From Paraburkholderia sp. BL10I2N1 (GTDB taxonomy: Bacteria > Pseudomonadota > Gammaproteobacteria > Burkholderiales > Burkholderiaceae), in assembly GCF_004361815.1 (NCBI RefSeq), contig NZ_SNWA01000002.1, forward strand, positions 248,001 through 312,000: a stretch of 64,000 nucleotides of DNA, in the 5' to 3' direction. The stretch's first letter is position 1; each line of letters begins with the position of its first letter. The position numbers and the translations under genes are program-made. Below, one piece after another: positions 39,366 through 55,781 of this stretch. Below the pieces are notes generated by a model. That model made no database searches, had not been told where the DNA came from, and saw only the letters and a program-made list of their open reading frames with translations.

Positions 39366-39377
39366 TGAAACTCCATG

Positions 39378-39412
39378 CACGAAAATACTTGTTTTCACAC
39401 GATATTGCACGA
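39378..39412. promoter_or_regulatory. Candidate DeoR-type operator: three CACGA repeats in helical phase
   Basis: CACGA occurs at 39378-39382, 39398-39402 and 39408-39412, that is 20 and 10 bases apart, so all three face the same side of the helix. They sit between the divergent DeoR gene and NudK-like gene. DeoR-family regulators often bind short repeated motifs upstream of themselves. This is inference from spacing. Confidence 0.4.
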
Positions 39413-39455
39413 TACCATGTTTTTGCCAAGTCAAAGCGTGCCCTGAAGGGAAACC

Positions 39456-40043
39456 ATGAACGAAACTGCCAACCGCGTGCGTATCGTCAACGTCGAAGTG
39501 CTATCGGACGACTGGTACGTGCTGAAGAAAACCACCTTCGATTTCCAGCGCGCAGACGGCACCTGGCAGCGCCAGAGCCGTGAGACGTACGACCGGGGCA
39601 ACGGCGCAACGCTGCTGCTCTACGATCCAGAGCGGCGCACGGTCGTCTTGACACGGCAGTTTCGCCTGCCGGTTTTCGTCAACGGACATGATGGCATGCT
39701 GATCGAAGCGCCCGGGGGTTTGCTCGAAGCCGCCTCGCCGGAAGCACGGATTCGCGCCGAGGTCGAAGAGGAAACCGGCTACCTCGTGCATGCCGTGCGG
39801 AAAGTCTTTGAGGCCTACATGAGCCCGGGGTCGGTGACGGAGAAACTGTTCTTTTTCGTCGCGCAGTACGATCCGGCTTCGCGGGTAAGCCGGGGCGGCG
39901 GCGTGGCTGCCGAGGGAGAGGACATCGAGGTGCTTGAACTGCCTGTCGAAGAAGCACTTGCCATGGTGCGGCGTGGCGACATCGCCGATGGAAAGACCAT
40001 CATGCTGCTGCAATACGCCGCACTGCATCTGTTCGCAGACTGA
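39456..40043 (+). CDS. Nudix hydrolase, NudK-like (GDP-mannose/nucleoside-diphosphate-sugar pyrophosphatase)
   Basis: A 195-residue Nudix enzyme that splits a nucleoside diphosphate linked to another moiety. The Nudix box core is IRAEVEEETGY with the metal-binding glutamates, and EAYMSPGSVTEKLFFFVAQY after it is characteristic of the NudK subgroup. An early Glu and the Arg of the textbook Nudix box are replaced by Ala here, much as in NudK relatives. The ATG follows GAAGGG. The DeoR regulator is divergent, suggesting control by a sugar phosphate. Confidence 0.88.
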   Translation: MNETANRVRIVNVEVLSDDWYVLKKTTFDFQRADGTWQRQSRETYDRGNGATLLLYDPERRTVVLTRQFRLPVFVNGHDGMLIEAPGGLLEAASPEARIRAEVEEETGYLVHAVRKVFEAYMSPGSVTEKLFFFVAQYDPASRVSRGGGVAAEGEDIEVLELPVEEALAMVRRGDIADGKTIMLLQYAALHLFAD

Positions 40044-40153: not shown

Positions 40154-41308
40154 TTAGAACTTGTGGCGCATGGCGAGGCGGACTGCAACCTGGTTACGCG
40201 TCGACGAGACGTCGGCGGCACCCGGGATGAACGCGTTGTCCAGCACCGTGCCGGTCTCGTCGCCCGCAACGTGCTGATATGCAACCTGAGCATAGAAGTC
40301 CGTGCGCTTCGAGATGTTGTAGTCGGCCATCAGACCCAACGTGTGGTACTTCGGCTTCGGTGTGCCCGTCGACGATTCGAATGACGACGTCGTGTACACG
40401 TATTGACCGCCTACGAAGAACGCCGGCGTGAACTGGTACTTCGCGTTCACTTCGAAGTTCTGGTACTTGAGCGCCGACAGCGTGCCGCCGTTCGGCGGCG
40501 TGATCGAGCCGATGTAGGCCGACGTATCCGTCGCTGCCGGGTTCGTGACGGTCGAGTTCGTGTAGACGAAGCCAAGCGTTGTGCTGCCGAACGTGTAGTT
40601 CACGCCGCCGCCGAAAATACGCAGACGTTCGGACAGGAAGTTCGCATCGTTGGTTGCGATTGCGCCGCCCGAGGTCAGGCCCGGGTTGTTCGCCTGCAGG
40701 TACGAGGCCGCGACCAGCAATCCGTCGAGCGTGTACTGTGCGCCCACGCTGTACTGACGGTTGTTCGCGAAGTTCGTGTCGTTGCTGAGGCTATACGTGC
40801 CACCGAACTGGAAGCCGGAGAAGTCCGGGCTCGCGTACTTGACCGTGTTGTTCACGCGGAACGAGTTGTCGGTGTTGTCGTTATCGTACGGATGCGACAA
40901 AAGGTAACCACCCCAGTTACCGTTTGCCGTCGTCTGAGCGAGATAGTCGACGAGCGAATCGTACTGACGGCCGAACGTGATCGTACCGTACTTGTCGTCC
41001 GACAGGCCCACGAATGCCTGACGGCCGAACATGCGGCTGCCCTGGCCCAGTTTGCCGCTATTCAGATCGAAGCCGTTTTCAAGTGTGAAAATCGCTTTCA
41101 GGCCGCCACCGAGATCTTCCGCGCCCTTCAGACCAAAGCGGCTGCCTTGCGCGTAACCACTTTGCATCTGGTATGCACTGTGACCGGCTGCGTTGTTCGT
41201 ATAGTTGAGACCTTCATCGATCACACCGTACAGCGTGACACTGCTTTGTGCGAAGACGGGGACGGCAAATGCGGTCAATGCAGCGAGGGCAAAGATCTGT
41301 TTTTTCAT
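40154..41308 (-). CDS. Gram-negative porin (Burkholderia OmpC-like)
   Basis: A 384-residue outer-membrane trimeric porin. The signal peptide is FALAALTAFAVPVFA, then the mature SSVTLYGVIDEGLNY start typical of this family. Loop 3 has the usual FGRQAFVGLSDDKYGTITFG and the protein ends VRLAMRHKF with a C-terminal Phe needed for BAM insertion. The beta-strand alternation is clear. It lets small hydrophilic solutes in. It is monocistronic with a long 5' region. Confidence 0.95.
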   Translation of the reverse strand: MKKQIFALAALTAFAVPVFAQSSVTLYGVIDEGLNYTNNAAGHSAYQMQSGYAQGSRFGLKGAEDLGGGLKAIFTLENGFDLNSGKLGQGSRMFGRQAFVGLSDDKYGTITFGRQYDSLVDYLAQTTANGNWGGYLLSHPYDNDNTDNSFRVNNTVKYASPDFSGFQFGGTYSLSNDTNFANNRQYSVGAQYTLDGLLVAASYLQANNPGLTSGGAIATNDANFLSERLRIFGGGVNYTFGSTTLGFVYTNSTVTNPAATDTSAYIGSITPPNGGTLSALKYQNFEVNAKYQFTPAFFVGGQYVYTTSSFESSTGTPKPKYHTLGLMADYNISKRTDFYAQVAYQHVAGDETGTVLDNAFIPGAADVSSTRNQVAVRLAMRHKF

Positions 41309-41671
41309 GAATTCTCCGGTACCTGATCATTGGACAACCTGCTTGCCTGACTGGTTTTTTTCTGCGTTACAGCAGCGACGTCTGTTGCAATGTTGCATGT
41401 CGAAAACGCAACGGACGCGATGCTGGCACACAGCTAAAGCACCGTCCATCAGGGGAGAACGCGGGTCTCAAAACTTGTTGTGAAATGCCCACGACGAGCG
41501 CATCAATCTGCGGCATTGACCTGGTCAAAATCGCTTTCGAACGTCGAAGCGGGAAACAGGAGGCATTGGTTGCACTGCGGGATCTTGCTTGACACCCCTA
41601 AGCCGGACGAGCCGGAACCAAACAGGTAGTACGATGCGTAGCCATATAGCCAGCCGATGCCGAAGTGAACC
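41309..41671. other. Intergenic region upstream of the porin and the 504-residue protein gene
   Basis: About 360 bases between divergent genes. It must hold the porin promoter. No terminal inverted repeat of a mobile element was found near 41500-41671. Confidence 0.4.
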
Positions 41672-43186
41672 ATGAAGGCCGATCTGATTGAGCGTTACGC
41701 GGCGAATTTGCACGGCGTGCTGTCGTGCTTTGACCGAATCCTGATCACGGGCACGCTGCCTGGCGCGTGCTACGCAGCGGGCATGACGAGTTTTCTGAAC
41801 GCCAACGGCATTCGCCTATTCGACTACGCCAGGTTCGCCGAACCGCTGCGCGAACGCATCCGTGTGCGCGCGCAAGAGGTCTGCGCTGCCGCCGGCATCG
41901 AGATTGAGCACGTCAACAAGAGCCACATCCGCAAGGAAGATCTGGTGGCACGCGTGCTGCAGGGGCGTGGCGATGCACCCGGGCTGGTGCACGTCATCTC
42001 GGCGATGGAGGCCTGCCCGAGCTACAAGCCGTGGCACGACAAGAGCAGCGGCAAGACCTACCTGCGCCCCGAGACGGGCAAGTGTCTGCACTACTACTTC
42101 TACTTCATCGATGACGAACTCGGGCTGTGCTACCTCAGGGTCCCGACCTGGGCACCGTTCGGCTTGCAGTTCTACTGCAATGGCCACGGCGCCGTGGCCC
42201 GTGCGCTCAAGCGCGAGGGCATCGGGTTCGTGCAGGCCGACAACGCCTTTTTGCGCATTGCCGATATGGACCGTGCACAGGCCATCGCCGACGCGCTGAG
42301 CCCCGATATGCTGCATGAGCGACTGGACCGCTACGCGCAGTGGCTGTGCCCGGTGCTCGACGTGTTCGGCCAGACCTACCACTGGAGCCTGCGGCAGGCC
42401 GAGTATTCCACTGACCTGATGTTCCGCAGCCAACAGACGCTGGTGCCGCTGTACGACGTGCTGTCGCGTCAGGCGGTGCTGGCCGCGCACGCCGGGAAAG
42501 TAGCCGGCTTCCTGGGCAAGAAGGTCACGCCGCAATTGGCGCAGGAGATCGGCTCGCGGCTGTCCACCCGCATCGAGGGACGCTGCATCAAGCACCATAT
42601 GGGCGTTGCCAGCGTCAAGGTTTACGACAAGTTCTCCCATGTGTTGCGGATAGAAACCACCATCAACGACGTGAGCTTCTTCAAACACCACCGCAAGGTG
42701 GAACACAGGAATGGCCAAAGCACCTACGAACTCGCAGCGTTGAGGAAAACCATCTACAGCCTGTTCGACCTGCGCGAGATCATGCTGGGCTGCAACCAGC
42801 GCTACCTCGCGTTTTTGTCGAGTCTGGATGACCCCAGCGCAGGTGAGCGCGACCTTCAACGTTTGAGCCAGTCCCGCGTGGGCAGTAATGAGCGCAGGGT
42901 CAAAGGACTCAACTTCTTCAACGGCGGCGAGCAAGCACTGCTGCGTGCCTTGCAGCGCGGCGAGTTCAACGTGCATGGCCTGCGCCGTGCCGATCTGGCC
43001 AGGCATGTGGACATGAGCGCCCCGGTGCTGTCCCGACAGCTCTCGCGACTGCGCACACTCGGCTTGATCAAGAAGGTGGCCCATACCTACCGCTACTACC
43101 TCACGCGTCTGGGCCGCGCCGCCATCGCTGCTGCCTGTTCTCTCACCCGTTTCAACATCGTTCCAATTCTGGCCGCAGCACACTGA
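41672..43186 (+). CDS. Uncharacterised 504-residue protein with C-terminal winged helix, probable mobile-element protein
   Basis: A large soluble protein that I recognise only as a family of multi-copy bacterial proteins, sometimes labelled MarR-like. The first 430 residues have conserved-looking segments such as LSCFDRILITGTLPGACYA, HVNKSHIRKEDLVARVLQ, KCLHYYFYFIDDELGL and YLRVPTWAPFGLQFYCNGH, rich in His, Asp and aromatic residues. Residues about 440-495 form a winged HTH (LRRADLARHVDMSAPVLSR, then LIKKVAHTYRYYLT). No DDE, HUH, tyrosine- or serine-recombinase motif was found. It sits among transposase remnants and has its own terminator. The function is unknown. Confidence 0.7.
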   Translation: MKADLIERYAANLHGVLSCFDRILITGTLPGACYAAGMTSFLNANGIRLFDYARFAEPLRERIRVRAQEVCAAAGIEIEHVNKSHIRKEDLVARVLQGRGDAPGLVHVISAMEACPSYKPWHDKSSGKTYLRPETGKCLHYYFYFIDDELGLCYLRVPTWAPFGLQFYCNGHGAVARALKREGIGFVQADNAFLRIADMDRAQAIADALSPDMLHERLDRYAQWLCPVLDVFGQTYHWSLRQAEYSTDLMFRSQQTLVPLYDVLSRQAVLAAHAGKVAGFLGKKVTPQLAQEIGSRLSTRIEGRCIKHHMGVASVKVYDKFSHVLRIETTINDVSFFKHHRKVEHRNGQSTYELAALRKTIYSLFDLREIMLGCNQRYLAFLSSLDDPSAGERDLQRLSQSRVGSNERRVKGLNFFNGGEQALLRALQRGEFNVHGLRRADLARHVDMSAPVLSRQLSRLRTLGLIKKVAHTYRYYLTRLGRAAIAAACSLTRFNIVPILAAAH

Positions 43187-43220
43187 AGTCTTCTCACAAA
43201 TCGCGAAGACTTAACTTTTT
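43186..43220 (+). terminator. Rho-independent terminator after the 504-residue protein gene
   Basis: AAGTCTTC (43186-43193) pairs with GAAGACTT (43205-43212), followed by AACTTTTT. It begins at the stop codon, so the gene is transcribed as its own unit. Confidence 0.75.
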
Positions 43221-43340
43221 AGTTACTAAATAGCTGACTCGCGCAAGCGGCCGGCCAAAGCAGTCAAGCCATTCTTTTACTGCGCTTCAATTGGCGCGTT
43301 CTACCCGTAGAACTACAGTCGAAGCTGATGTAAGGGAGAG

Positions 43341-43556: not shown

Positions 43557-43725
43557 AATCGGGCTGCATCAAATTGCTCATACGCCGGACTCAAATCCAT
43601 AAACACTCATACACCAAACCTCGGCGCTAGCTCGAAATACGTCGGGCTTTGGCAGCGCCTGGCATGAACGCTGTCTGCTAAACTCAAAATCGTGCTGAGT
43701 GTATCCAAAACCATGGGAGAGCCCA

Positions 43726-43989
43726 ATGCTGCGGACATACCCTGGAGGTTGCCATTGCCAATTGGTGAGGTTTGAAGCTCGGATTGATTTCAGCGATGGT
43801 ACGGTGAAATGCAATTGCAGCTTCTGCAGCAGACTGCGGTTCTGGCACGTCAAAGTTCGTCGGGAAGAGTTTCGTCTTCTTTCCAGTGAAATCGCACTTG
43901 CGGAATATCAGGGCAAAAACCCGGTAGCACATCATCCGTTTTGTAAGCGGTGCGGCGTCCACGTATTTGACCGCGTGGATATGCCAAAC
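43726..43989 (+). pseudogene. GFA-family protein, N-terminal part (split by an IS3 element)
   Basis: From ATG at 43726 (after GGGAGAG) the frame reads LRTYPGGCHCQLVRFEAR, then VKCNCSFCSRLRFW and HHPFCKRCGVHVFDRVDMPN. These are the zinc-binding cysteines of the glutathione-dependent formaldehyde-activating (GFA/DUF636) fold. The IS3 element starts at 43990. The gene resumes in frame at 45309, so the insertion is clean. The intact protein would have about 135 residues, normal for the family. The substrate in this family is often unknown. Confidence 0.85.
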
Positions 43990-44039
43990 TGAACCGCCCC
44001 GGATTTGATGGAGGCTCCAACTCTTGAGAAAATGGAGCC

Positions 44040-44363
44040 ATGAACAAGTCGAACAAATTTTCTGCTGAAGTCCGGGAAAGTGCAGTGCGCATGGTGCAAG
44101 AGCATCGCGGCGAGTATCCGTCCCAGTGGGCGGCGATCGAATCCATCGCCCCCAAGATCGGCTGTACGAGCCAGACATTGCTGGGGTGGGTCAAACGGAA
44201 TGAAGTCGATGGCGACGAGCGTGAGGGCGTGACTACGTCCGAACGCGAACGCCTTAAGGCACTGGAACGCGAGAACAGGGAACTGCGCCGTGCCAACGAG
44301 ATTCTGAAGCTGGCGAGCGCGTTTTTCGCCCAGGCGGAGCTCGACCGCCGCCTGAAATCCTGA
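44040..44363 (+). CDS. IS3-family transposase OrfA
   Basis: A 107-residue protein with an HTH_Tnp_1 domain ([19 protein letters not shown], then [15 protein letters not shown]) and a C-terminal leucine-zipper-like coiled coil ([19 protein letters not shown]). It binds the IS ends. A run TTTTTC at 44322-44327 inside its end is a likely -1 frameshift site that makes the OrfAB fusion: beyond it the OrfB frame reads [17 protein letters not shown]. Confidence 0.93.
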
Positions 44364-44419
44364 AGGCCTTCATCGATCAGCATCGCGACACCTTCGGGGT
44401 CGAGCCGATCTGCAAGGTC

Positions 44420-45271
44420 TTGCGGATTGCCCCGTCTGGCTACCAGCGCCATGCCGCGCAGCTTCGTGATCCGTCGCGGCGCTGTATTCGCGCAATACGC
44501 GATGAACGTCTGCCGCCGGAGATCAAGCGTGTCTGGCAGGCCAACATGCAGGTCTACGGTGCGGATAAAGTCTGGAAGCAGATGAACCGGGAGCGTATCG
44601 CGGTGGCTCGCTGCACGGTTGAACGGTTGATGAAGCAACTGGGTCTGCGCGGTGTGATGCGAGGCAAGCGTGTTCGCACGACCGTTCCTGACGCCATAGC
44701 CCCTCGTCCGCTGGATCGGGTCAATCGCCAGTTCAAGGCGACACGGCCGAACCAGCTCTGGGTTTCGGATTTCACCTACGTTTCGACGTGGCAAGGCTGG
44801 CTGTATGTGGCGTTCGTGGTTGACGTGTTCGCCCGCCGCATCGTCGGCTGGCGCGTCAGCTCATCGATGACCACGGACTTCGTTCTGGATGCACTTGAAC
44901 AGGCGCTTTACGCGCGGCGCCCGGGCGGCGACGGAACGTTGATACACCACTCGGACAGAGGGTCCCAATACGTCAGCATTCGCTACAGCGAACGGCTGGC
45001 TGAAGCGGGCATCGAACCGTCGGTCGGCAGCCGGGGCGACAGCTATGACAACGCCTTGGCTGAAACGATCAACGGCTTGTACAAGGCTGAACTGATTCAT
45101 CGCCGCACCTGGAAAACGCGAGAATCCGTTGAACTGGCAACGCTGGAATGGGTGGCCTGGTTCAATCATCATCGATTGATGGAACCCCTCGGCTATATCC
45201 CGCCCGCTGAAGCTGAGGCAAACTACTATCGGCAACTTGAAACAGCTGCCGCTGAACCGGCATTAACTTAA
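44420..45271 (+). CDS. IS3-family transposase OrfB (DDE integrase core)
   Basis: A catalytic part of 283 residues from the first internal ATG. The frame is open upstream to the frameshift site at 44322, and the active enzyme is probably the OrfAB fusion. HTH_21 region: NMQVYGADKVWKQMNRERI. DDE core: WVSDFTYVSTWQGWLYVAF (Asp), IHHSDRGSQYVSIRYSE (Asp), SYDNALAETINGLYKAELI (Glu), then WFNHHRLMEPLGYIPPAE. Intact. Confidence 0.93.
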   Translation: MRIAPSGYQRHAAQLRDPSRRCIRAIRDERLPPEIKRVWQANMQVYGADKVWKQMNRERIAVARCTVERLMKQLGLRGVMRGKRVRTTVPDAIAPRPLDRVNRQFKATRPNQLWVSDFTYVSTWQGWLYVAFVVDVFARRIVGWRVSSSMTTDFVLDALEQALYARRPGGDGTLIHHSDRGSQYVSIRYSERLAEAGIEPSVGSRGDSYDNALAETINGLYKAELIHRRTWKTRESVELATLEWVAWFNHHRLMEPLGYIPPAEAEANYYRQLETAAAEPALT

Positions 45272-45308
45272 ACCAACCAGCCTCCACGATTCCCGGGGCG
45301 GTTCAAAC

Positions 45309-45452
45309 AAAACGGGATACCCGTACATCAATGCAAATATCATGTGCCTTAAGGAACTTGACGTTGACGAAGCTTTGAATGCGCCGATCACCTGCCAGAA
45401 TGGCCTGGAGAATGATTGGACCAATCCCCCTTTGGAACGCCGACATCTTTGA
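45309..45452 (+). pseudogene. GFA-family protein, C-terminal part
   Basis: After the 3-base target repeat the frame continues KTGYPYINANIMCLKELDV and ends NDWTNPPLERRHL. It joins directly to DRVDMPN at 43989. The INANIMCLKELDVD segment fits the last strands of the GFA fold. The gene would be intact if the IS were removed. Confidence 0.75.
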
Positions 45453-45777
45453 TTCTGGCATATCGGACTTCCGTAGGAAACAGGGTAATCAGGGAGTTCT
45501 TCCCGAATGTTGCGGTATTTCGTACAGGTTCTGATTTCGGTTTTGAACAGAGAATTCTGAGGCCCCCACTACAACGACAGACAAACCTCGCGCGCGTGAA
45601 ATCGACTGCCATCATCCTGCCCATAGACCACTCTTGACGTTAGCTCTTACCCGTATTGCCAAACTGATGTGATCGGCCAGTTTCCCCTGCGCGAAATGGC
45701 GATCTGCATCCCGGCGTCGAATCCTCTTCACCCGTTCACTCCGCGATGCTGTGTCCGATCAGACATCGCATGGGCAC
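45453..45777. other. Intergenic region left of the fimbrial composite element
   Basis: About 325 bases with no convincing gene. It ends at the direct repeat TGGCGGAAAT that borders the ISAs1 remnant. Confidence 0.4.
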
Positions 45778-45787
45778 TGGCGGAAAT
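45778..45787. repeat. Target-site duplication, left copy (tggcggaaat)
   Basis: The ten bases TGGCGGAAAT lie just outside the left ISAs1 terminus at 45788. The same ten bases follow the right terminus at 55772-55781 in direct orientation. Confidence 0.85.
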
Positions 45788-45825
45788 CAGGGCGATTGCA
45801 TGAAGCGTCAAAGATTGTTTAAAGA

Positions 45826-46325
45826 TTGACCGGAAGGCTTGTGAACAAAGCGGTGCGCGCGATTACTCTGGATTTTGCCCCGGAGAAACGGATGCATGAC
45901 GTACTGAGTATCGAGGAAGCTTTTGGGGATTTGAATGACCCACGCAGCCGCCCGTCGGCACATGATCTGACGCAGCTGCTGGTGGTGGCGTTGTGCGCGA
46001 TCCTGTCAGGCGCCAGATCTGAGGAGAAGAGAAGCTGGACTGGCTGCGCTGTCATATACCATTGGACCAGGGCATCCCCTCCCACGACACATTCGGTCGC
46101 GTCTTCGCGGCGCTCAATCCGAAGCAGTTCGAGGCTTGCTTCATTCGCTGGATGAGTCGCCTGTTCCCGGCTTTAGCCAGCGCTCAATCCGAAGCAGTTC
46201 GAGGCTTGCTTCATTCGCTGGATGAGTCGCCTGTTCCCGGCTTTAGCCAATCAGGTCGTGGCGATCCCCCAAGGGGACTTCCTTCGGGGCGTGCACTGCT
46301 GCTCAAGGGCGCGATTGTCACGCCG
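45826..46325 (+). pseudogene. ISAs1-family transposase remnant (left copy)
   Basis: The N-terminal frame reads MHDVLSIEEAFGDLNDPRSR and DLTQLLVVALCAILSGARS, typical of ISAs1 (DDE_Tnp_1-like with an H-repeat associated N-terminal domain). It then shifts frame at about 46020, continues HIPLDQGIPSHDTFGRVF in another frame, and contains a 70-base tandem duplication. It stops abruptly at 46325 where the duplicated fimbrial segment begins. Confidence 0.85.
46111..46250 (+). repeat. 70-bp tandem duplication inside the left ISAs1 remnant
   Basis: Two adjacent 70-base units, 46111-46180 and 46181-46250, both start cgctcaatccgaagcag and end ctttagcca. Seventy is not a multiple of three, so the copy shifts frame. 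The right ISAs1 remnant has only one unit. Confidence 0.9.
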
Positions 46326-46489
46326 GGCCCATCGTCCTGGTTGGTAAACTGCAGACTCTGCTCTCTGGCGTTTCCATCGTAGATGACACGGGTACCGGGC
46401 ATGATGACGCTGGCGCAGGCGCTGCCAATCTGGGCAGCACACGTGGCGGCCAAGATTACCCTGTAAACATTTTCACGAACCCAGCCCAT
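46326..46489 (-). pseudogene. Fimbrial chaperone, N-terminal fragment
   Basis: From ATG at 46489 the frame gives MGWVRENVYRVILAATCA, then VIMPGTRVIYDGNAREQS and stops matching after about 55 codons, where it runs into ISAs1 sequence at 46325. It equals the first 55 residues of the chaperone at 53159-53917 except Ile for Met at residue 12. Not functional. Confidence 0.9.
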
Positions 46490-46532
46490 GTTATCTCCGT
46501 TTCCGCAAGCTGTTGATTAGATGTACTGATAT

Positions 46533-46571
46533 AAAATCCTTCGGGCTTGCTTGGATATGCAAGCCCGAAGG
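46533..46571 (-). terminator. Hairpin after the second pilin gene
   Basis: A 13-bp perfect stem (46538-46550 with 46559-46571, ccttcgggcttgc) followed on the minus strand by GATTTTAT. It is the same structure as at 53961-53999 and should end or attenuate the pilin transcript. Confidence 0.75.
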
Positions 46572-46582
46572 CAAGGGGGTGA

Positions 46583-47122
46583 TTACTGGTAGCTAACTGC
46601 GTACTGCACGCTGCCCAGCACCGAACCCGGCGTTGCGCCGCCTTGTTCGGAGATGTACTGAACAGCGAAGTCGTGCGACGCGGTCGTTGCGCCAACTTCC
46701 AGATTCAGGCCCGGTGCGGCATAACCGTTGACGCCGCTCAGGTTGAACGGCGCAGACGGTGCTGCCGGATCGAGCAGTTGCAGGGCAACGTTAGTCGCGC
46801 TGCCGGTGTTGCCCAGATTGCCGCTCGGGGTGACCTGGTTGCCCACGAACACCGTATCGATCGACTGAGCGACCGTCGTCGGAGCCATACATCCAGTCAC
46901 GCCAATCGTGAACTTGGTCGGTTCAGCGGTGGCGCCCGCGCCAGCCAACTCTGACGACGCGACGATAGGCAGCAGCACGGCCGGGCTGGCAGCATTGCCG
47001 TCGATCGAAACCGCGCACGTCTGATCCGTCACTTCGCCCTGGAAGTTGATGGTGTTGCCGCTGGAAGCAAACGCGAAGACAGGAACAGCCGCAATGGCGA
47101 GGGCAAGAAGATGTTTTTTCAA
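46583..47122 (-). CDS. Major fimbrial subunit, second copy
   Basis: A 179-residue type 1 pilin. The signal peptide ends PVFAFASS, TINFQGEVTDQTCAVSI holds the first Cys and GVTGCMAPTTV the second of the subunit disulfide. The C-terminus VLGSVQYAVSYQ is the beta-zipper recognised by the chaperone. It differs from the first copy at ten positions, all between residues 15 and 70, and is identical after that. It has its own copy of the upstream region but only a broken chaperone behind it, so it is either an extra subunit or a recombination reserve. Confidence 0.9.
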   Translation of the reverse strand: MKKHLLALAIAAVPVFAFASSGNTINFQGEVTDQTCAVSIDGNAASPAVLLPIVASSELAGAGATAEPTKFTIGVTGCMAPTTVAQSIDTVFVGNQVTPSGNLGNTGSATNVALQLLDPAAPSAPFNLSGVNGYAAPGLNLEVGATTASHDFAVQYISEQGGATPGSVLGSVQYAVSYQ

Positions 47123-47358
47123 GGTATAACTCGTTTTGGAAAGGTTGATAAATGTCGCCGCTTCTCAGGCAGCAAACGAATTCTGGGGCTTTCAACTTCA
47201 TTCCAATGTAAGCCGCGTCCGATAAATTCGTCGGACTGGAATAGATCCAGGACAAAGGCATCTATGCGTTCCACGAGAAATATGCCTTCGGCCTGCTCGT
47301 GCACGACGACCTTTTCCTGTCGCGCACGATCCCCGATGATTCCGGCGCACTACCGCAA

Positions 47359-47491
47359 ACGCCGATCCATCAACGCTTCAAGCTGCACCGCAGCGTCGTC
47401 GTCATCTTCGACCGCGTTATTCAGAACTGGGGTGCTTACCTCGGCGACAACGCGATAAGCAGCACGATCCTCGATCGCCTCATGCACTTCC
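47359..47491 (+). pseudogene. IstB-like C-terminal remnant
   Basis: The frame reads HRSVVVIFDRVIQNWGAYLG followed by DNAISSTILDRLMH, which resembles the sensor part of IS21-type IstB proteins (usually TNR..QDWG..LGD....TTILDRLMH). The preceding 60 bases (LLVHDDLFLSRTIPDD) are not assigned. It is a short degenerate fragment unrelated to the complete istB at 915-1715. Confidence 0.5.
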
Positions 47492-47508
47492 GGGCTGACT
47501 CGTTGCAT

Positions 47509-47775
47509 GGCAGGACCTGGGCGCCGTGCGGTGAAACACCCGTTGTCGAGCGTCCGGGTGAGCGGCAAAGTATGAGCGCGGCGTCTGCCATCAACTTGAA
47601 GAGTGCCTTCTGGTTTGCAACATACGAAGATGGGCTCAGCGGTGGGTTGTTCGTGACGCTGCTCAGGATGTTGATGTTCAATCGCCACAAGGCGGTTCAT
47701 CTGGTCGTCGATGGAGACAGGTCGGCTCATTTCCACCAGCGGCCGGGGCGACTCAAATGTCACTTTTGGCAGCTA
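47509..47775 (+). pseudogene. IS630-family transposase remnant
   Basis: The frame reads RTWAPCGETPVVERPGERQS, AINLKSAFWFATYEDG and KAVHLVVDGDRSAH. These match the middle of IS630 transposases, with the second catalytic Asp in the HLVVDG strand. The third acidic residue and the C-terminus are lost or frameshifted. It fuses directly to the IstB-like fragment before it. Confidence 0.65.
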
Positions 47776-47878
47776 CGTGGTCACTACCCATCAAGCCGTC
47801 CAGGATACAACGCCTCACCCCTCGTTCATCCCGAACGCCGTACCGCGCGAAGCCTGCGGCCCGCAATCCATGCAGTTG

Positions 47879-48775
47879 TTACGGGCCAACCGCCACATTT
47901 CGTTCATCGGCTGCCGGATTGCCATCATCGTCGATCAGGGAAAATAGCACTTTTGCATTTTCACCCGGGTTGGCATGCAGCGTGTCGAGATCGAAAGAGG
48001 CGCTGGAAAACGGGGCGACCATATCAGCCTGGGCTTGTTGCGACGCATTCGCCAGCTTGACCTCGACGGCACCCAGCGTTGCGTAATAGGGTGTCGGGTT
48101 GTCAACCTTCAGCACAAGCTTGTCCGATGCCTGGACAAGCGAGAACACAAGATGCCGGGGGAACTCGCTCACGGAATACGGGAGCTTTTCTGGTCGCACG
48201 AACACCTTGACCTGGGTGCGCATCGTGACAGTCACCGTCTGAGCGTCGGGTAGCCGGTCCTTGGGTGTTGCCGGAATCTCGTACAGATTGAGCCAGAACA
48301 GGGACTCGCGATCTTCGGGCAGCGGCGCCCCCGAATTGATGAGGCGCAGACTCGTCTGATCGCCTGGACCCATGCGAAAAACAGGCGGCAGCACGATGAT
48401 CGGTGCCTTCGACTCCTGTGGCACCGAATTGATGTCGCCGTCATCCACCCATGCCTGAACGAGTACCGGGTACTTGTTGACATTGAACACCTGCAGGGAC
48501 TGTTCAGTGGCACCCGCCGCGAACACCACCCGCGACACCTCGGGCGTCACACCCGCAGCGGCCTGAGCGCTCCATATAGCCAGGGGCAGTGCGCCCCACG
48601 CAAGCGCGAAGCGCGCCAACCGGCGGGACCCGCGCACGGCCAGACGTGTCCAGCCAGCACGAGGAATGCGTACCTGTCCACGCGCAGTCGGGGCACCGCG
48701 CCGGTCCGCAAACATCGTGCGAATCGACGGTCTTTCGGCATCCTGCGCGCGGGACGCTGACACGTGGATCTTCAT
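47879..48775 (-). CDS. Second periplasmic fimbrial chaperone (PapD-like)
   Basis: A chaperone of 298 residues from the first ATG. The hydrophobic export segment is RFALAWGALPLAIWSAQA at about residues 54-72, so the true start may lie downstream of 48775. The mature part has the two Ig domains: VSRVVFAAGATEQSLQVFN (first strands), PIIVLPPVFRMGPGDQTSLR (G1 donor region), then ESLFWLNLYEIP. It probably serves the tip protein encoded just before it, while the first chaperone serves the pilin. Last intact gene of the operon. Confidence 0.85.
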   Translation of the reverse strand: MKIHVSASRAQDAERPSIRTMFADRRGAPTARGQVRIPRAGWTRLAVRGSRRLARFALAWGALPLAIWSAQAAAGVTPEVSRVVFAAGATEQSLQVFNVNKYPVLVQAWVDDGDINSVPQESKAPIIVLPPVFRMGPGDQTSLRLINSGAPLPEDRESLFWLNLYEIPATPKDRLPDAQTVTVTMRTQVKVFVRPEKLPYSVSEFPRHLVFSLVQASDKLVLKVDNPTPYYATLGAVEVKLANASQQAQADMVAPFSSASFDLDTLHANPGENAKVLFSLIDDDGNPAADERNVAVGP

Positions 48776-48894
48776 AGGGGGCTCACAAAGATTGATGCTG
48801 ATCTAACGACTTTACTATTCGGCTGCGCCCGCAAACTTCATTGGAGCGCCGCAACCGGCGCCCTAATAATGACCGTCTGTGAGGGTAGAACCGG

Positions 48895-50319
48895 TTACTG
48901 CACCCGCACGACAACCTGAGCCGTCGCGTTAAACTTCCCTGTCGTCACGGGCGTCACTCGTGGCGCAAAGGCCTTGAAGGTCGCATTGATCGTGCGCGTA
49001 TAGGAGGTCATGCCGCCAGATGCCGGGCCATTTGCAGATGCATCATTCAAAACCGGATCCCAGCCATCCTTGGTACCGCCGGCGGTGACGTACTCGTTGG
49101 TGAGGAAGTTCAAGGCAGCACCTCCCGGTCTCGACAATGCCACACCCACGCCGGTTGCAGCACCGGGATCGGTTCCGTAGCCATCGGAGAGCAGATAGCT
49201 CACGCCACTTCCCGTGGTCGTCAGGCCCATGCTGGTCGCGCTCTGTGCATTGGCCGGTGGAGCAAGAATGCCCAGCGCGGTCTGGTTGGCCGCCGTTCCG
49301 CTCGCGAAAGCCGCCAGGTTCGCAGGTTTCGTGGTCTGGCACTGCATCTGGATTGTGATGGGCAACTGCCTGGAACCACCCTGATTCAGTTCGCCAATCG
49401 CAATCGACGGGAAATTCACCACCGGTGTTGCATTGGTCACTGCACAGGTGGCGGATCGTCTGACCGTTACATTGCCATAGGGGTTGATCGAACCGGGCCA
49501 ATTGCCATACCAGCCGTTGTAGTGATTGAGGGAGTCGGCGCCAACCGACAGGTTACCCTTGATGATAGTGCCACTGGCGCCGCCAACAAATGCAGAATAG
49601 GCGACGGGCTGGGACCACGCCCAAGCCCCAGTGCGAGTATTGTCATGGACCGGGCAGGTGCTGCACTGGAAAAACTCCATCTTGTACTGACTGAAGTTCT
49701 TTGCCTTGACGAGAAACCAGCCCTGACTGTCGACATCGAGGTTAGTAAGGGGCGTAGCCTTCCAGTACCGCGACACGTATTCACCTGTTGTCATGTTCGT
49801 TACTCGGGACACGACCCCCGTGTAATAGGTTTCATACGTTTCCGGGATACCTGACTGGGCACTGACATTGGTGTAGCCAGCATATGTGTTATCGCCGTTC
49901 GTCGCATAGTATTCAAACATGGTGCCGGCCGAATCAGGGGAGCAGCGGAACAGAACCTGCTCCGGACTGTAGCCCCCAACGCCTTTATCACCGAGGTTGA
50001 CCATGGGCGCCACGCCGCTTGCGAGCAGCGTGCCGTCTGGCACAAAGGGAGGGGTGTTGATCTGAATGGTCATTGGATAGGCGCCTTTCCCCCCCCCATC
50101 GGTTGACCCCGTCCAGCTACTGGCAACGGTACCCGGGTCCGTGTAGAGATTCGAATTCTTATTGGTGGTAAGCTTCGTGATCTTCCAGCACCCCTTCGAG
50201 GTGGACTGGGCCCAGGCGTGCGTGGGCACGACGATGCTCGACATGACGACCAACGTCGCCAGCAGGCCGTTTCGACTCACCCGGGGCGAACGCCAGGCGA
50301 AGTTTAAAAAGCGATTCAT
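48895..50319 (-). CDS. Fimbrial tip protein/adhesin
   Basis: A 474-residue exported protein with a signal peptide ending VVPTHAWAQ. It is much larger than a pilin and has two parts: an N-terminal lectin-like domain (about 40-290, rich in Tyr, Trp, Gly and Asn, with paired cysteines in FFQCSTCPVHDN) and a C-terminal pilin-type domain (about 300-474, VVNFPSIAIGELNQGG through the final TAQVVVRVQ). This is the two-domain layout of FimH-like adhesins. It is downstream of the usher. The receptor is unknown. Confidence 0.8.
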   Translation of the reverse strand: MNRFLNFAWRSPRVSRNGLLATLVVMSSIVVPTHAWAQSTSKGCWKITKLTTNKNSNLYTDPGTVASSWTGSTDGGGKGAYPMTIQINTPPFVPDGTLLASGVAPMVNLGDKGVGGYSPEQVLFRCSPDSAGTMFEYYATNGDNTYAGYTNVSAQSGIPETYETYYTGVVSRVTNMTTGEYVSRYWKATPLTNLDVDSQGWFLVKAKNFSQYKMEFFQCSTCPVHDNTRTGAWAWSQPVAYSAFVGGASGTIIKGNLSVGADSLNHYNGWYGNWPGSINPYGNVTVRRSATCAVTNATPVVNFPSIAIGELNQGGSRQLPITIQMQCQTTKPANLAAFASGTAANQTALGILAPPANAQSATSMGLTTTGSGVSYLLSDGYGTDPGAATGVGVALSRPGGAALNFLTNEYVTAGGTKDGWDPVLNDASANGPASGGMTSYTRTINATFKAFAPRVTPVTTGKFNATAQVVVRVQ

Positions 50320-50397
50320 GAATAAGAACTCCTGATAGTCGTCGATTCGGCCCTAGGCCCGAATCGACGGGTGCGCCAGCCTTGCCGGCGCACAACA

Positions 50398-53157
50398 TTA
50401 CTTGGCTGCGGCCTGAATTTCAGCCGATTCAAGGGGGGCGCACCTTGCGCTCATCCGAATGATGGGTGCGGAATCCTGCCCGGTGGTGTCGTACGCAATG
50501 GCGCATTGATCTTCGCGACGCTCTCCCCACTTCACGGTCAGCGTGCCGCGATCCTCCGGCACTCGAGCGTAGACCTGTCCTCCCTGCCCCACCATACCGA
50601 TGGCAGCGCCGGTGCTGTCCAGCACATCCGCGCCCAGAGGCAGCGACTCGCCTTCTGGCCGGGTCGCTCCGATCAACAACGCGTGACCGGTCAGTGTGGA
50701 GAATTTGAGCAGCACGGCAGATCCGGCATACGGTGCAACCCGAATCTGGTTACCTGTCAATTCAGCGTTCTGGTTGATCCCCTTGGTGTCAAGCGCCACA
50801 TCGTTGTAGCGGTACGGTGTCAGCGACGGAACGATTGCGTACCCGAAACTGTCCACGCGCGCACCCGACCCGTTGCGCACAGTGGCACCCTCTGCACCCT
50901 TGGCTTCAACAAGGCCGAACGTATCGCTCAGGTACGGGCCGAGTGTGACCCCACCACCATGCGCGACTGCTGCGCCGCGTGCGGTGGCGCCGGCCTGCCA
51001 GAAGCCATTACCCTGCGAATAGTTCGCGCCCATCGTGACCATCGACAGGTTCTTCTGCACGTTGCCGCTGACGCTCTTCGAGCCGCTTTGCGTCTCGGCC
51101 GATGCCGACAGGCCATAGCTGAGTGTCTGCGCCGCATCGGCGATACCGCTTACGGACGTCTGGAACGAGGTGCCCTGGCCGGTGCCGGTTGCAACGCTGC
51201 CGGAGAGACTTGCGGAGCGCGGGCCGGAGCCGAGCGGGATCGAAACCGTCGCCATGAGCGTATTGGACGACTGGCCGCTCGATCCCGACTGGGCACTGCC
51301 GGCCACCAGGTTCGGCAAGCCAGTACCGTAGAGCATGCCGGTCTGCTGGCGAATGAACGACAGGTTATAGTTGATCGACCTGTAGTGATTGTTATAGCTG
51401 AGCTGGAGCTGCGTATCACGCGGCCTCGAGCCATAGTAGCTGCTTATCGCAGCTGACAGCGAAAGGGAGCCGTACTGGTTGAGGCTCTGGTTGACGTTAA
51501 CCGTAAACTGATCGCGCTGCTGATACGTGCCTGATGACCAGGTCTCGCCATTCTGATAGGCCACCCGTGCGCTCAGCGCGTCCAGAAAGTCCCGATAACC
51601 TTTGGTCGAATAGCGGTAGCCGGCCAGCGAGAACGTGGTCATGGTCTGCTGGAGGGTATGGCTGTAGTTGATGGAACTCCGCCACCCGTTCACGCGGTTA
51701 CCCTGCGCATCAAGTGCGTTGGACCACGCAGCGTTCAGGCCGAACGCGCCAAATGACGTTCCAAATACCACACCAGCCAGCACGGACTGGTAATCCGTGG
51801 AAAGACGTGCGCCGCCGTTGGCGGTGATCATATTGGTCAGACCGCGCTCATACGTAAAGTCGGCGAACTTTGCGTTCGAGCCTTCCACCTGGCGCACCTG
51901 ACCCAGCGTGAAGCTATAGTGTGACGCGCCGGGTCGCAGCGAGTTCGGCACTGCGGAAAACGGCACCGTGAACGTGGAGACCTGCCCGTTCGCTTCGAAC
52001 ACCCGCACGGTCAGGTCACCCTGATAGCTCGTAGGGTTCAGGTCGTTGATCGAAAACGGACCCGGCGCGACTGTGGTCTGGTAAATGACGTTGCCGTTCT
52101 GACTTACCTCGACCCGTGCGTTGGTGTTGGCAACACCGTTCACGACCGGCGCGTAACCGCGCATCGAGTCCGGCAGCATGCGGTCATCGGTCTCGATATG
52201 AAACCCGGTGTAACCCACAGAACTGAGCAGGTTGCCACCCGTGAAGTTTTGCCCGACGGTGAGGTGGCTGTTCCAGGCCGGCAACGGTCGCTCAGCGTAC
52301 GTGCGAATATTGTTCCACTGTCCGGCGCTACCCGCAGGGCTGTTGTTAAACGTGTAGGCGGACTGCTGGTGAAAACGCCATAGCCCGATGTTCAGACCGG
52401 CGTTGATACCCGCATAGAGCGAGTTTGTCTTGTAGCCAAAGGCCGACGACGTGTAGTAGTTCGTGTCGTAGTTGAGATAGGCCATGGTCTGGCCTGCCTC
52501 GAGGCTGGCCAGGTCGACTGCACCGCGCGGCACATGCTTCATCTGCGCGTGTGGAACGCTGATGTTAAGACGCAGGCGCGACAGGTCGAAGGCCGTGGAT
52601 GAGCCCGGCACGCGCTGCGCAAGCGGACCGCACAGCGCAGGCAAGGCTTCTGCGGGTGGCGTGTGCACCGCTGGCATAGCCTCATCCGGGACACTGTCCG
52701 TTGACGCGGAAGACGCACTGGACACTTCGCTGGAGGTGGCGCTCTCTACCAGCATCCCGGTCGAGGTCAGAAAATCGTCGCTCAGACACGGATAAACCTC
52801 GCCGCTATCTGTGCTGCGGAACTCGACCGGCTGACGGGAGATAAAGACGTCATTCACGTAGATATCGACCCGATAATTTCCGGGGTCTACGCTGCTAACT
52901 TTATTAAAGCGTTCGATATCGGCGACACCGAGCGATGAACCCATCAGCAGCTCGCTGTCAAACGTATAGGCGGGTGCTGCACTACCGGAAGCCTCGACGG
53001 CCGCCGGAATGGGCGCGGCCAGCACCTGGCATGCGGGAATCGCAAAACCGAGGGCCGCTACGATTATCGAAACCTGGGAAGGTCTGTTTGACCTTACGCG
53101 GGTGGAAACAACCCGACCGTTGACGGAATACACTGTTTTTCGAGGCTGACGCAACAT
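50398..53157 (-). CDS. Outer-membrane usher (FimD/PapC type)
   Basis: A 919-residue usher. After the signal region comes the N-terminal chaperone-binding domain (FDSELLMGSSLGVADIERFN, then PGNYRVDIYVNDVFI), the 24-strand beta-barrel with plug (about 150-700) and the C-terminal domains (ESLPLGADVLDSTGAAIGMV, YARVPEDRGTLTVKWG). Full length and intact. The start is one base from the chaperone stop. It assembles chaperone-bound subunits into a surface fibre. Confidence 0.95.
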   Translation of the reverse strand: MLRQPRKTVYSVNGRVVSTRVRSNRPSQVSIIVAALGFAIPACQVLAAPIPAAVEASGSAAPAYTFDSELLMGSSLGVADIERFNKVSSVDPGNYRVDIYVNDVFISRQPVEFRSTDSGEVYPCLSDDFLTSTGMLVESATSSEVSSASSASTDSVPDEAMPAVHTPPAEALPALCGPLAQRVPGSSTAFDLSRLRLNISVPHAQMKHVPRGAVDLASLEAGQTMAYLNYDTNYYTSSAFGYKTNSLYAGINAGLNIGLWRFHQQSAYTFNNSPAGSAGQWNNIRTYAERPLPAWNSHLTVGQNFTGGNLLSSVGYTGFHIETDDRMLPDSMRGYAPVVNGVANTNARVEVSQNGNVIYQTTVAPGPFSINDLNPTSYQGDLTVRVFEANGQVSTFTVPFSAVPNSLRPGASHYSFTLGQVRQVEGSNAKFADFTYERGLTNMITANGGARLSTDYQSVLAGVVFGTSFGAFGLNAAWSNALDAQGNRVNGWRSSINYSHTLQQTMTTFSLAGYRYSTKGYRDFLDALSARVAYQNGETWSSGTYQQRDQFTVNVNQSLNQYGSLSLSAAISSYYGSRPRDTQLQLSYNNHYRSINYNLSFIRQQTGMLYGTGLPNLVAGSAQSGSSGQSSNTLMATVSIPLGSGPRSASLSGSVATGTGQGTSFQTSVSGIADAAQTLSYGLSASAETQSGSKSVSGNVQKNLSMVTMGANYSQGNGFWQAGATARGAAVAHGGGVTLGPYLSDTFGLVEAKGAEGATVRNGSGARVDSFGYAIVPSLTPYRYNDVALDTKGINQNAELTGNQIRVAPYAGSAVLLKFSTLTGHALLIGATRPEGESLPLGADVLDSTGAAIGMVGQGGQVYARVPEDRGTLTVKWGERREDQCAIAYDTTGQDSAPIIRMSARCAPLESAEIQAAAK

Positions 53158-53158
53158 C

Positions 53159-53917
53159 TCACTTCATCCCTTGTTCTACAACTACCGCGTATTCCGATTC
53201 GCGAACCGCACCGTAGTCGTCGACGTATTTGATTTTCAGACTGGGGGTTGCCCCTTCAAGCGGACATTCCCCCTTAACGCTCCATCCCGCCTCGGAATGA
53301 GGCGCGAGCATGTCAGCCGTGAAGGTTGCGGTATGCGTGCCGCAGGTCACACTGCCGTCAAGAAGCGAGATGTAGTAGCCAGACGAGTTGTTAGCGGTGA
53401 CGCGCTCACTCTTGTCTTGTTTGCCAATACGGAATGTGAGTTGCTGCTGCGCTTTTTGCGCGCTGCCTTCAATCCCGGCTGGACGATAGAAAAGCTTGAG
53501 CCGGTTGCGCAACATCACCAGCATCTGGTTCTGGTCGGCATAGGCCGCGTTTTTTGATGGGATCTGCAGGGTATTGAGGTAAAACACCGACTCGCGGTCC
53601 TGCGGCAGATCCTTGCCGGTAAACACCAGGCGTACTGTCTGCCCCGCCTTGGGCTCGATGCGAAATATGGGTGGGGTAACCAGGAACGGCGCGTCGGCCG
53701 TGTCGGGGGTAGACTGGGCATTCCCCGAGTCAACCCACACCTGCATGACGCTTGGCCCATCGTCCTGGTTGGTAAACTGCAGACTCTGCTCTCTGGCGTT
53801 TCCATCGTAGATGACACGGGTACCGGGCATGATGACGCTGGCGCAGGCGCTGCCAATCTGGGCAGCACACGTGGCGGCCAGCATTACCCTGTAAACATTT
53901 TCACGAACCCAGCCCAT
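53159..53917 (-). CDS. Periplasmic fimbrial chaperone (PapD-like)
   Basis: A 252-residue chaperone with a signal peptide ending CAAQIGSACA. SVIMPGTRVIYDGNAREQSL is the first strand, FLVTPPIFRIEPKAGQTVRL the G1 donor strand, and DRESVFYLNTLQIPSKN the family signature with the Ig-domain salt-bridge region. It folds the pilin and delivers it to the usher. It lies 93 bases after the pilin gene, with a strong hairpin in the gap that should lower its expression relative to the pilin. Confidence 0.95.
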   Translation of the reverse strand: MGWVRENVYRVMLAATCAAQIGSACASVIMPGTRVIYDGNAREQSLQFTNQDDGPSVMQVWVDSGNAQSTPDTADAPFLVTPPIFRIEPKAGQTVRLVFTGKDLPQDRESVFYLNTLQIPSKNAAYADQNQMLVMLRNRLKLFYRPAGIEGSAQKAQQQLTFRIGKQDKSERVTANNSSGYYISLLDGSVTCGTHTATFTADMLAPHSEAGWSVKGECPLEGATPSLKIKYVDDYGAVRESEYAVVVEQGMK

Positions 53918-53960
53918 GTTATCTCCGTTTCCGCAAGCTGTTGATTAGATGTACTGATAT

Positions 53961-53999
53961 AAAATCCTTCGGGCTTGCTTGGATATGCAAGCCCGAAGG
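53961..53999 (-). terminator. Hairpin between pilin and chaperone genes (attenuator)
   Basis: A 13-bp perfect stem (53966-53978 with 53987-53999) and an 8-base loop are followed on the minus strand by GATTTTAT, a short U run. Many fimbrial operons place such a partial terminator after the pilin gene to make far more pilin than chaperone. Confidence 0.75.
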
Positions 54000-54010
54000 C
54001 AAGGGGGTGA

Positions 54011-54550
54011 TTACTGGTAGCTAACTGCGTACTGCACGCTGCCCAGCACCGAACCCGGCGTTGCGCCGCCTTGTTCGGAGATGTACTGAACAGCGAAGTC
54101 GTGCGACGCGGTCGTTGCGCCAACTTCCAGATTCAGGCCCGGTGCGGCATAACCGTTGACGCCGCTCAGGTTGAACGGCGCAGACGGTGCTGCCGGATCG
54201 AGCAGTTGCAGTGCAACGTTAGTCGCGCTGCCGGTGTTGCCCAGATTGCCGCTCGGGGTGACCTGGTTGCCCACGAACACCGTATCGATCGACTGAGCGA
54301 CCGTCGTCGGAGCCATACATCCAGTCACGCCAATCGTGAAGTTCGTCTGTTTAGCGACGGCGCCCGCGCCAGTCAACTCTGACGACGCGACGGTAGGCAG
54401 CAGCACGGTCGGGCTGGCAGCATTGCCGTTGATCGAAACCGCGCACGTCTGATCCGTCACTTCGCCCTGGAAGTTGATGGTGTTGCCGCTGGCAGCAAAC
54501 GCGAAGGCAGGAACAGCCGCAATGGCGAGGGCAAGAAGATGTTTTTTCAA
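54011..54550 (-). CDS. Major fimbrial subunit, first copy
   Basis: A 179-residue pilin, first gene of the chaperone-usher operon. The signal peptide ends PAFAFAAS. Conserved disulfide cysteines lie in EVTDQTCAVSI (Cys36) and GVTGCMAPTTV (Cys78). The C-terminal beta-zipper is VLGSVQYAVSYQ, and the N-terminal extension SGNTINFQGEV donates the strand to the next subunit. It forms the shaft of the fibre. A close variant copy lies 7.4 kb away at 46583-47122. Confidence 0.93.
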   Translation of the reverse strand: MKKHLLALAIAAVPAFAFAASGNTINFQGEVTDQTCAVSINGNAASPTVLLPTVASSELTGAGAVAKQTNFTIGVTGCMAPTTVAQSIDTVFVGNQVTPSGNLGNTGSATNVALQLLDPAAPSAPFNLSGVNGYAAPGLNLEVGATTASHDFAVQYISEQGGATPGSVLGSVQYAVSYQ

Positions 54551-54676
54551 GGTATAACTCGTTTTGGAAAGGTTGATAAATGTCGCCGCTTCTCAGGCAG
54601 CAAACGAATTCTGGGGCTTTCAACTTCATTCCAATGTAGGCCGCGTCCGATACTTTCGTCGGACTGGTCTGGAAAT

Positions 54677-55771
54677 CAGGGCAATTGCATGAAGAGCGCA
54701 GGGCAATCGCACCAATTGTTGAATCGCTATGAACCGTGCCAGCCGAGGATTTGAGCGCGATAAAAGTCGCTGGCGCATGCCTTCAGGCGGCGAATCTTCA
54801 GCCCTGCTTTGGTACTGCGATCCTGCGGCAGCAGGTTCAGGGCGATGCGCCTGAGGATGGCGAAGTTCTGAGCGGCGTTATCCACACGGACCCGGCACTG
54901 ATCTTCACCGAACGCCATATCGAGGCACCAGTGCATGCCATTCTCTATACCCCAGTGGGAACGGACAGCGTGGACAATAGGCGCTGCATCGGGCGGCAGG
55001 CTGCTGACGTAATAGTGCCGCTCACGATCGAGCGCAGCCCGGGCCACAGATCGGGCTCATGTTGCCAGCGCGTGAGAATGTCGCTGGCGACACAGCGGCG
55101 CGTCTCGATGCGGCCGTGATCTTTCTAGACTTCCCGATGCTCGCTGGTGTAGTCCGCATAGGCAAGCGGAACGCGCTCCATGGCGTCAAATGCCGTCTGT
55201 ACCCGGCCCAGCATCGTGCCCTGGTTGCCCTTGCAGGCCAGCACGTAGTCGGCGCCCGCCGTCACAATGCGTTCGGCAATGGACCGCTGACACCCCATCG
55301 CATCGATCGTGACAATCGCGCCCTTGAGCAGCAGTGCACGCCTCAAAGGAAGTCCCCTTGGGGATCGCCACGACCTGATCGGCTAAAGCTGGGAACAGGC
55401 GACTCATCCAGCGAATCAAGCAAGCGTCGAACTGCTTCGGATTGAGCGCCGCGAAGACGCGACCGAATGTGTCGTGGGAGGGGATGCCCTGGTCCAATGG
55501 TATATGACAGCGCAGCCAGTCCGGCTTCTCTTCTCCCCAGATCTGGCGCCTGACAGGATCGCGCACAACGCCACCACCAGCATCTGCGTCAGATCATGTG
55601 CCCACGGGCGGCTGCGTGGGTCATTCAAATCCCCAAAAGCTTCCTCGATACTCAGTACGTCATGCATCCGTTTCTCCGGGGCAAAATCCAGAGTAATCGC
55701 GCGCACAGCTTTGTTCACAAGCCTTCCGGTCAATCTTTAAACAATCTTTGACGCTTCATGCAATCGCCCTG
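54677..55771 (-). pseudogene. ISAs1-family element with broken transposase (right copy)
   Basis: The ends are CAGGGCAATTGCATGAAG at 54677 and, inverted, CAGGGCGATTGCATGAAG ending at 55771, so the element is near full length (1095 bases). The transposase reads MHDVLSIEEAFGDLNDPRSR, then after frameshifts WGEEKPDWLRCHIPLDQGIP, VTIDAMGCQRSIAERIV, ACKGNQGTMLGRVQ and SHWGIENGMHWCLDMAFGED. It has at least three frame changes and an internal deletion at VVAI/ALLLKGAIV shared with the left copy. Confidence 0.9.
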
Positions 55772-55781
55772 TGGCGGAAAT
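55772..55781. repeat. Target-site duplication, right copy (tggcggaaat)
   Basis: TGGCGGAAAT follows the right ISAs1 end directly and matches 45778-45787. Ten bases lies at the upper end of the 8-10 bases I expect for ISAs1-type elements. Confidence 0.85.

Follow-up and report, generated by a model that had tools for sequence, protein, structure and literature searches.

The 64,000-nt window of Paraburkholderia sp. BL10I2N1 DNA analysed here (the genome comprises 9.2 Mb in four contigs) contains a complete chaperone-usher fimbrial operon located between two damaged insertion sequences (IS) of the ISAs1 family. This arrangement of about 10 kb is probably a decayed composite (or pseudo-composite) transposon. 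That the whole operon moved in a single event is proposed more tentatively, because the direct repeat around the unit dates only its tips, and the 7.43 kb between two internal repeats of 920 bp could have entered or left separately. A preliminary description of this DNA had held that the whole unit transposed together, and its claims were re-examined within the window.

Outer ends and insertion sequences

The terminal sequence CAGGGCGATTGCATGAAG is found exactly at 45788-45805 (plus strand) and at 55754-55771 (minus strand), with the tips pointing outward, and once more with one mismatch at 54677-54694 (plus strand). When up to three mismatches are allowed, shuffled windows contain on average 0.10 matches and none of 100 shuffles reaches three. 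In this IS group the two ends have nearly the same tip sequence, as seen in the related locus L096, so the 18-bp tip alone cannot separate one end from the other. The separation is given by the self-comparison of the window, where 45788-46178 and 55771-55381 match over 391 bp in inverted orientation with 98.0% identity. Both outer tips are thus true left ends, as the preliminary description had stated. The 10-base direct repeat that it reported is also confirmed: TGGCGGAAAT has only two exact copies in the window, each flush with an outer tip, and eight more places carry it with one mismatch (10 in all; shuffle mean 4.76). Since random pairs of 10-mers from the window are identical in 8 of 2,000,000 cases, an exact repeat abutting both tips is not due to chance. 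It is the strongest single fact of the analysis, and it favours the insertion of a unit with two left ends.

Among the loci examined there are five distinct relatives of the element with two tips, one of them within this genome, and four of the five are bordered by direct repeats of 9-10 bp (CACCCACAC, GGCTTTGCGT, GGACGCCGGG and AAGGCCATCC), the length of the duplication found around the whole unit. Members of the ISAs1 family produce duplications of 8-10 bp. With outward left ends, abutting TGGCGGAAAT repeats and duplications of this length in the relatives, the simplest interpretation is that a unit with two left ends inserted here.

The two copies of one IS that enclose the operon are a stub of 535 bp and a copy of 1095 bp. 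The stub carries a perfect tandem duplication of 70 bp (46110-46179 and 46180-46249), past which the match between both arms resumes to 46322 (143 bp, 95%), and it is fused to a chaperone fragment with an overlap of 3 bp at 46320-46322. The right copy retains its own right tip at 54677; it is shorter than the two-tipped relatives (1236-1256 bp), and it aligns with the 1239-bp relative of L096 at 74% identity across 1020 columns, with numerous gaps. The ISAs1 transposase profile (NF033564) matches 54727-55047 with 98.2 bits, above its curated cut-off of 70, and 55186-55566 with 58.5 bits, below it, these pieces being in separate frames; in the profile search it matched neither the frame of the left stub nor 55416-55733. 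In tblastn the frame from L096 matches both arms, yet the window only in pieces. Judged from these transposase pieces, the element is assigned to the ISAs1 family, with which it also shares the CAGGGC-type terminal repeats and the duplications of 9-10 bp. It differs from the insertion sequences of this family in that both copies are broken and the outer ends form a left-left pair. As previously described, neither transposase is intact; with broken frames and shortened copies there is no active transposase at present, and the unit is at most a fossil.

Table. Positions within the window of the unit, its ends and its genes
Feature	Positions	Strand	Basis
Left flank F, outside the repeat; 92% to G111	45659..45772		Genus-wide nucleotide comparison
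Left 10-bp direct repeat TGGCGGAAAT	45778..45787	+	Pattern search
Truncated ISAs1-type stub, left end outward	45788..46322	+	Tip search, self-comparison
Second pilin copy (gene 46583-47122) and 5' part of chaperone	46320..47239	-	Self-comparison
Mosaic of repeated fragments and IS debris	47241..47715		Repeat and profile comparison
Second periplasmic chaperone (PapD_N, PapD_C)	47879..48775	-	Domain search
Fimbrial tip/adhesin-like protein, Fimbrial domain	48895..50319	-	Domain search
Outer-membrane usher, 919 aa, open	50398..53157	-	Domain search
First periplasmic chaperone, open	53159..53917	-	Domain search
Major pilin, open	54011..54550	-	Homologues, precomputed PF00419
ISAs1-family element, both tips, 1095 bp, transposase frame broken	54677..55771	-	Tips, profile hits, alignment
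Right 10-bp direct repeat TGGCGGAAAT	55772..55781	+	Pattern search

The fimbrial operon and its site

The operon is read from the minus strand in the order pilin, chaperone, usher, adhesin, chaperone; all its genes are open, and those for usher, chaperone and pilin or adhesin are adjacent, which identifies it as a chaperone-usher operon. The pilin gave no Pfam match at 0.001; it carries a precomputed PF00419 assignment and its homologues are named fimbrin. Relatives of the major pilin at 94% and 91% identity belong to Paraburkholderia sp. CI3 and WSM4179, two strains that an OpgC protein search (107 matches, E up to 1e-150, names for part of them only) did not place. The sole NCBIfam match of the adhesin is StbD, with 243 bits against a cut-off of 363. 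StbB is second for the first chaperone and fourth for the second one, below its cut-off both times, and the top model of the usher is not named Stb. The term Stb-like would therefore express only a leaning, the cut-offs of the Stb models not being reached.

Usher relatives with at least 54% identity are present in only 10 of the 143 other genomes of the genus, the remaining listed matches having 45% or less, so the distribution of the operon is patchy. From relatives, 13 operon loci with limited flanks were available in 10 genomes (12 distinct, L071 and L098 being the same locus). The operon of P. adhaesiva (L071) has the same gene order and an usher 68% identical, whereas no ISAs1 transposase was found by tblastn in the stretch of it that was examined. 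A blastn match of 31 bp to the IS is present in one of the 13 loci.

Two segments of the unit, 46320-47239 and 53748-54667, form the direct repeat of 920 bp with 97.8% identity. Only the right copy is complete, the left one being cut off where it meets the IS. Mismatches between the pilin copies are clustered, 12 of the 20 being within 46913-47079, which suggests conversion or selection; consequently, identity is not a clean clock here. Between the two pilin genes, 10 codons differ non-synonymously and 2 synonymously, and all the amino-acid changes are in residues 15-70, as if diversifying. The repeats could also excise the operon as a circle of 7.43 kb or amplify it. In L144 and L145, three tandem pilin-like matches adjoin a second operon of this family, and the second pilin copy of the window may likewise come from tandem duplication. 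Within the mosaic that follows the left copy of the 920-bp repeat, positions 47487-47715 correspond to the inner part of an IS630-family element, preceded by an IstB-like piece that scores below cut-off.

The unit is located between a porin gene (40154-41308) and opgC. An opgC match was obtained in 144 of 144 genus genomes, and 30 loci were examined, namely that of this genome and the 29 best-scoring of 143 relatives. The porin adjoins opgC in 25 of these 29 (in one of the remaining four a contig end interrupts the locus), which marks the locus of the window as a lineage-specific insertion between both genes. The distance from start to start is 521-567 bp in those 18 of 24 relatives measured for which both starts were found, and the interval is about 14.8 kb in the window. 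The core sequence left of 41597 and right of 55781 adds up to 602 bp, which exceeds the relatives by 35-81 bp, so some of the flank may not be core. The preliminary description had named two findings that would speak against it, the operon at this site in relatives without ISAs1 ends and an empty site already carrying the repeat twice; neither was encountered, since the porin-opgC interval of the relatives examined lacks the operon and none of 24 intergenic sequences contains TGGCGGAAAT with up to one mismatch.

Possible histories of the unit

If the unit is a composite transposon, a transposase that still worked would have used the outside left ends as a pair and moved the intervening DNA into TGGCGGAAAT, duplicating this target. 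The left IS would later have lost its right half by the deletion that fused the stub to the chaperone fragment, the right IS would have lost its reading frame, and other IS elements would have accumulated; the unit is no longer self-mobile. The operon may have been inside at insertion or may have recombined in afterwards through the homology of the 920-bp pilin-chaperone repeats.

Several observations weigh against a transposon that carried the whole operon. The insertion as a whole (approximately 41.6-55.8 kb) is a mosaic wider than the 10-kb unit, with an element of 1.63 kb (41597-43230), an apparently split GFA gene, IS fragments and the short flank F on the left of it. The operon could enter or leave across the 920-bp direct repeats, and tblastn detected ISAs1 transposase in none of the 13 operon loci of relatives within their limited flanks. 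One of the five two-tipped relatives has no direct repeat. The empty site proposed earlier as a check exists at gene level in the 25 relatives mentioned, but the exact junction of left flank, repeat and right flank was not found in the 144 genus genomes, nor was a second copy of the unit with different 10-base flanks, the other check that the preliminary description had proposed. No long near-identical copy of the IS, and no near-identical helper, was found elsewhere in this genome or in the 144 genomes of the genus. The other matches in this genome are 67-76% identical, save one piece of 41 bp at 88%, and some match to the 1.1-kb element, mostly short, occurs in 34 of the 144 genomes (own included). 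In the plasmid collection neither the unit, searched at near stringency, nor F had a match; partial IS matches of 66-85% occur in 10 of its records, and its usher matches (E up to 1e-100) are all below 60%.

Two further points on this side concern the inner flank of the right IS and the flank F. The inner flank is GTCTGGAAAT; it agrees with TGGCGGAAAT at 6 of 10 bases, the last six (GGAAAT) being the same, and random pairs share their last six bases at a frequency of 0.000458. An earlier single insertion would explain this, and a composite would not. A target preference for GGAAAT was considered and rejected, as no motif is common to the flanks of the five two-tipped relatives. The tail of F may be similar to this inner flank, judging by eye. 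F itself matches only one of the 143 other genus genomes, G111, where it is on contig C3 and opgC on C2, that is, on a different replicon. Among 398 genomes sampled from the family, the genus being part of the sample, it gave two additional matches, 21 and 34 bp long. A weak match of F in L099, scoring 42 where 100 shuffles reached at most 36, is within apparently unrelated coding sequence and was dropped. In G111, F is separated by 127 bp from a relic of the second chaperone gene and its 3' sequence, the identities with the window being 92% for F and 90% and 87% for the remaining matches. These 127 bp are the 3' end of the IS630-family element whose interior is 47487-47715 of the window, in the same orientation; they do not match the right flank above shuffles and were discarded as lost target DNA. 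A weak match of 37 bp of them in L071/L098 (31 against 29-30 in shuffles) was also dropped. From these alignments we infer that a single IS630 insertion 3' of the operon, near F, is probably common to both genomes. If the 10-bp duplication is true, F belonged to the target and its linkage to the operon began with the insertion, in which case G111 would derive from this event through a deletion. At 98%, the arms seem more recent than the linkage of F and operon (90-92%), unless gene conversion has homogenised them, an argument weakened by the clustered mismatches of the pilin copies at 46913-47079. At L092:14492-16918 of G111, a relic of the second chaperone gene adjoins an ISAs1-type element that is truncated (72% identity, 245 bp), beside a different fimbrial operon.

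These points leave room for three other histories, all of them unlikely. A single ISAs1 between F and the right flank may have made the TGGCGGAAAT duplication, and a fimbrial block with a left-end stub may then have recombined in at the terminal repeats (about 18-24 bp of homology), so that the left-left pair would be a recombination product and no composite ever moved. The right IS does have both tips and GGAAAT on its inner flank, and an exchange at nearly identical tips is conceivable; nevertheless, a crossover in a very short repeat is needed, the left arm replacing the right side, and the inner flank agrees at only six bases. Of similarly low probability is the transposition of a small left-left unit (stub, pilin-chaperone fragment and right IS, about 2.6 kb) that later received the remainder by Campbell-type homologous recombination across the 920-bp repeat. 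The direct repeats bound precisely this 7.43-kb remainder, with the left copy cut and the right one complete, whereas no relative with the small unit is known and the repeats could equally be a later duplication, as the tandem pilins of L144 and L145 illustrate. Least likely of the three is the arrival of the fimbrial locus in a larger block including F, by homologous recombination or on another element, with ISAs1 copies as later, incidental insertions and rearrangements. It would agree with F near the operon relic in G111, with the IS630-family element 3' of the second chaperone gene in both genomes and with an insertion that includes the GFA gene and other IS elements, but it offers no explanation for an exact 10-bp repeat abutting both left tips.

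The decayed composite transposon is consequently the reading retained for the ends: of the claim that the 10-kb unit transposed as one, the insertion of a left-left unit is sustained by tips and duplication, and the carriage of the whole operon is put in doubt by the wider insertion, F beside the relic of G111, the 920-bp repeats and GGAAAT on the inner flank. A broader scenario, in which an ISAs1 composite with outside left ends spread the complete operon and the DNA next to it among replicons of Paraburkholderia (those of this genome and of G111), with arms kept alike by gene conversion and 920-bp repeats permitting excision or swap of the operon, is considered rather improbable, though somewhat less so than the three histories above.

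Known cassettes and neighbouring elements

Fimbrial cassettes flanked by IS are already known. One source describes type 3 fimbriae (mrkABCDF) that travel as variations of the composite transposon Tn6011 on IncX plasmids, and an IS1-flanked partial type 1 fim cassette on pMO17/440_54 (PMC3402527). Tn6011, whose variants differ in length, resembles the present unit as an IS-flanked chaperone-usher cassette; however, its mrk genes are plasmid-borne and of Klebsiella origin, whereas here the operon is chromosomal and of another type, with ISAs1-family ends and broken transposases (PMC3402527). The fim cassette of pMO17/440_54 likewise has fimbrial genes between IS copies, but its usher gene is heavily truncated and the operon is complete here (PMC3402527). 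The unit would probably be a new, decayed example of such cassettes. A full-text literature search, with most subscription papers outside its reach, found no ISAs1 composite with fimbriae; the title of one reference mentions, for Paracoccus marcusii, a mosaic element of ISPmar4 (ISAs1 family).

Should the unit have moved as a whole, ISAs1-type elements would count among the carriers of adhesion operons from one environmental bacterium to another, and this would help to account for the patchy occurrence of this fimbrial type in the genus. In any case, what a target duplication dates is the pair of ends, not all the DNA now found between them.

With regard to the neighbouring DNA, the element at 41597-43230 recurs on three contigs of the genome in ten more near-full-length copies that are shown as 100% identical. 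Its protein of 504 aa has no transposase domain in Pfam or NCBIfam, giving only HTH matches, and the element is possibly an uncharacterised kind of mobile element. The GFA-domain gene (43699-45450) seems to be interrupted by an IS3-family element (about 43991-45308), for which reading the sequence by eye suggests a 3-bp repeat. In two relatives (L019 and L022), opgC adjoins genes matching 38868-40043 and 36624-37270 of the window in place of the porin.

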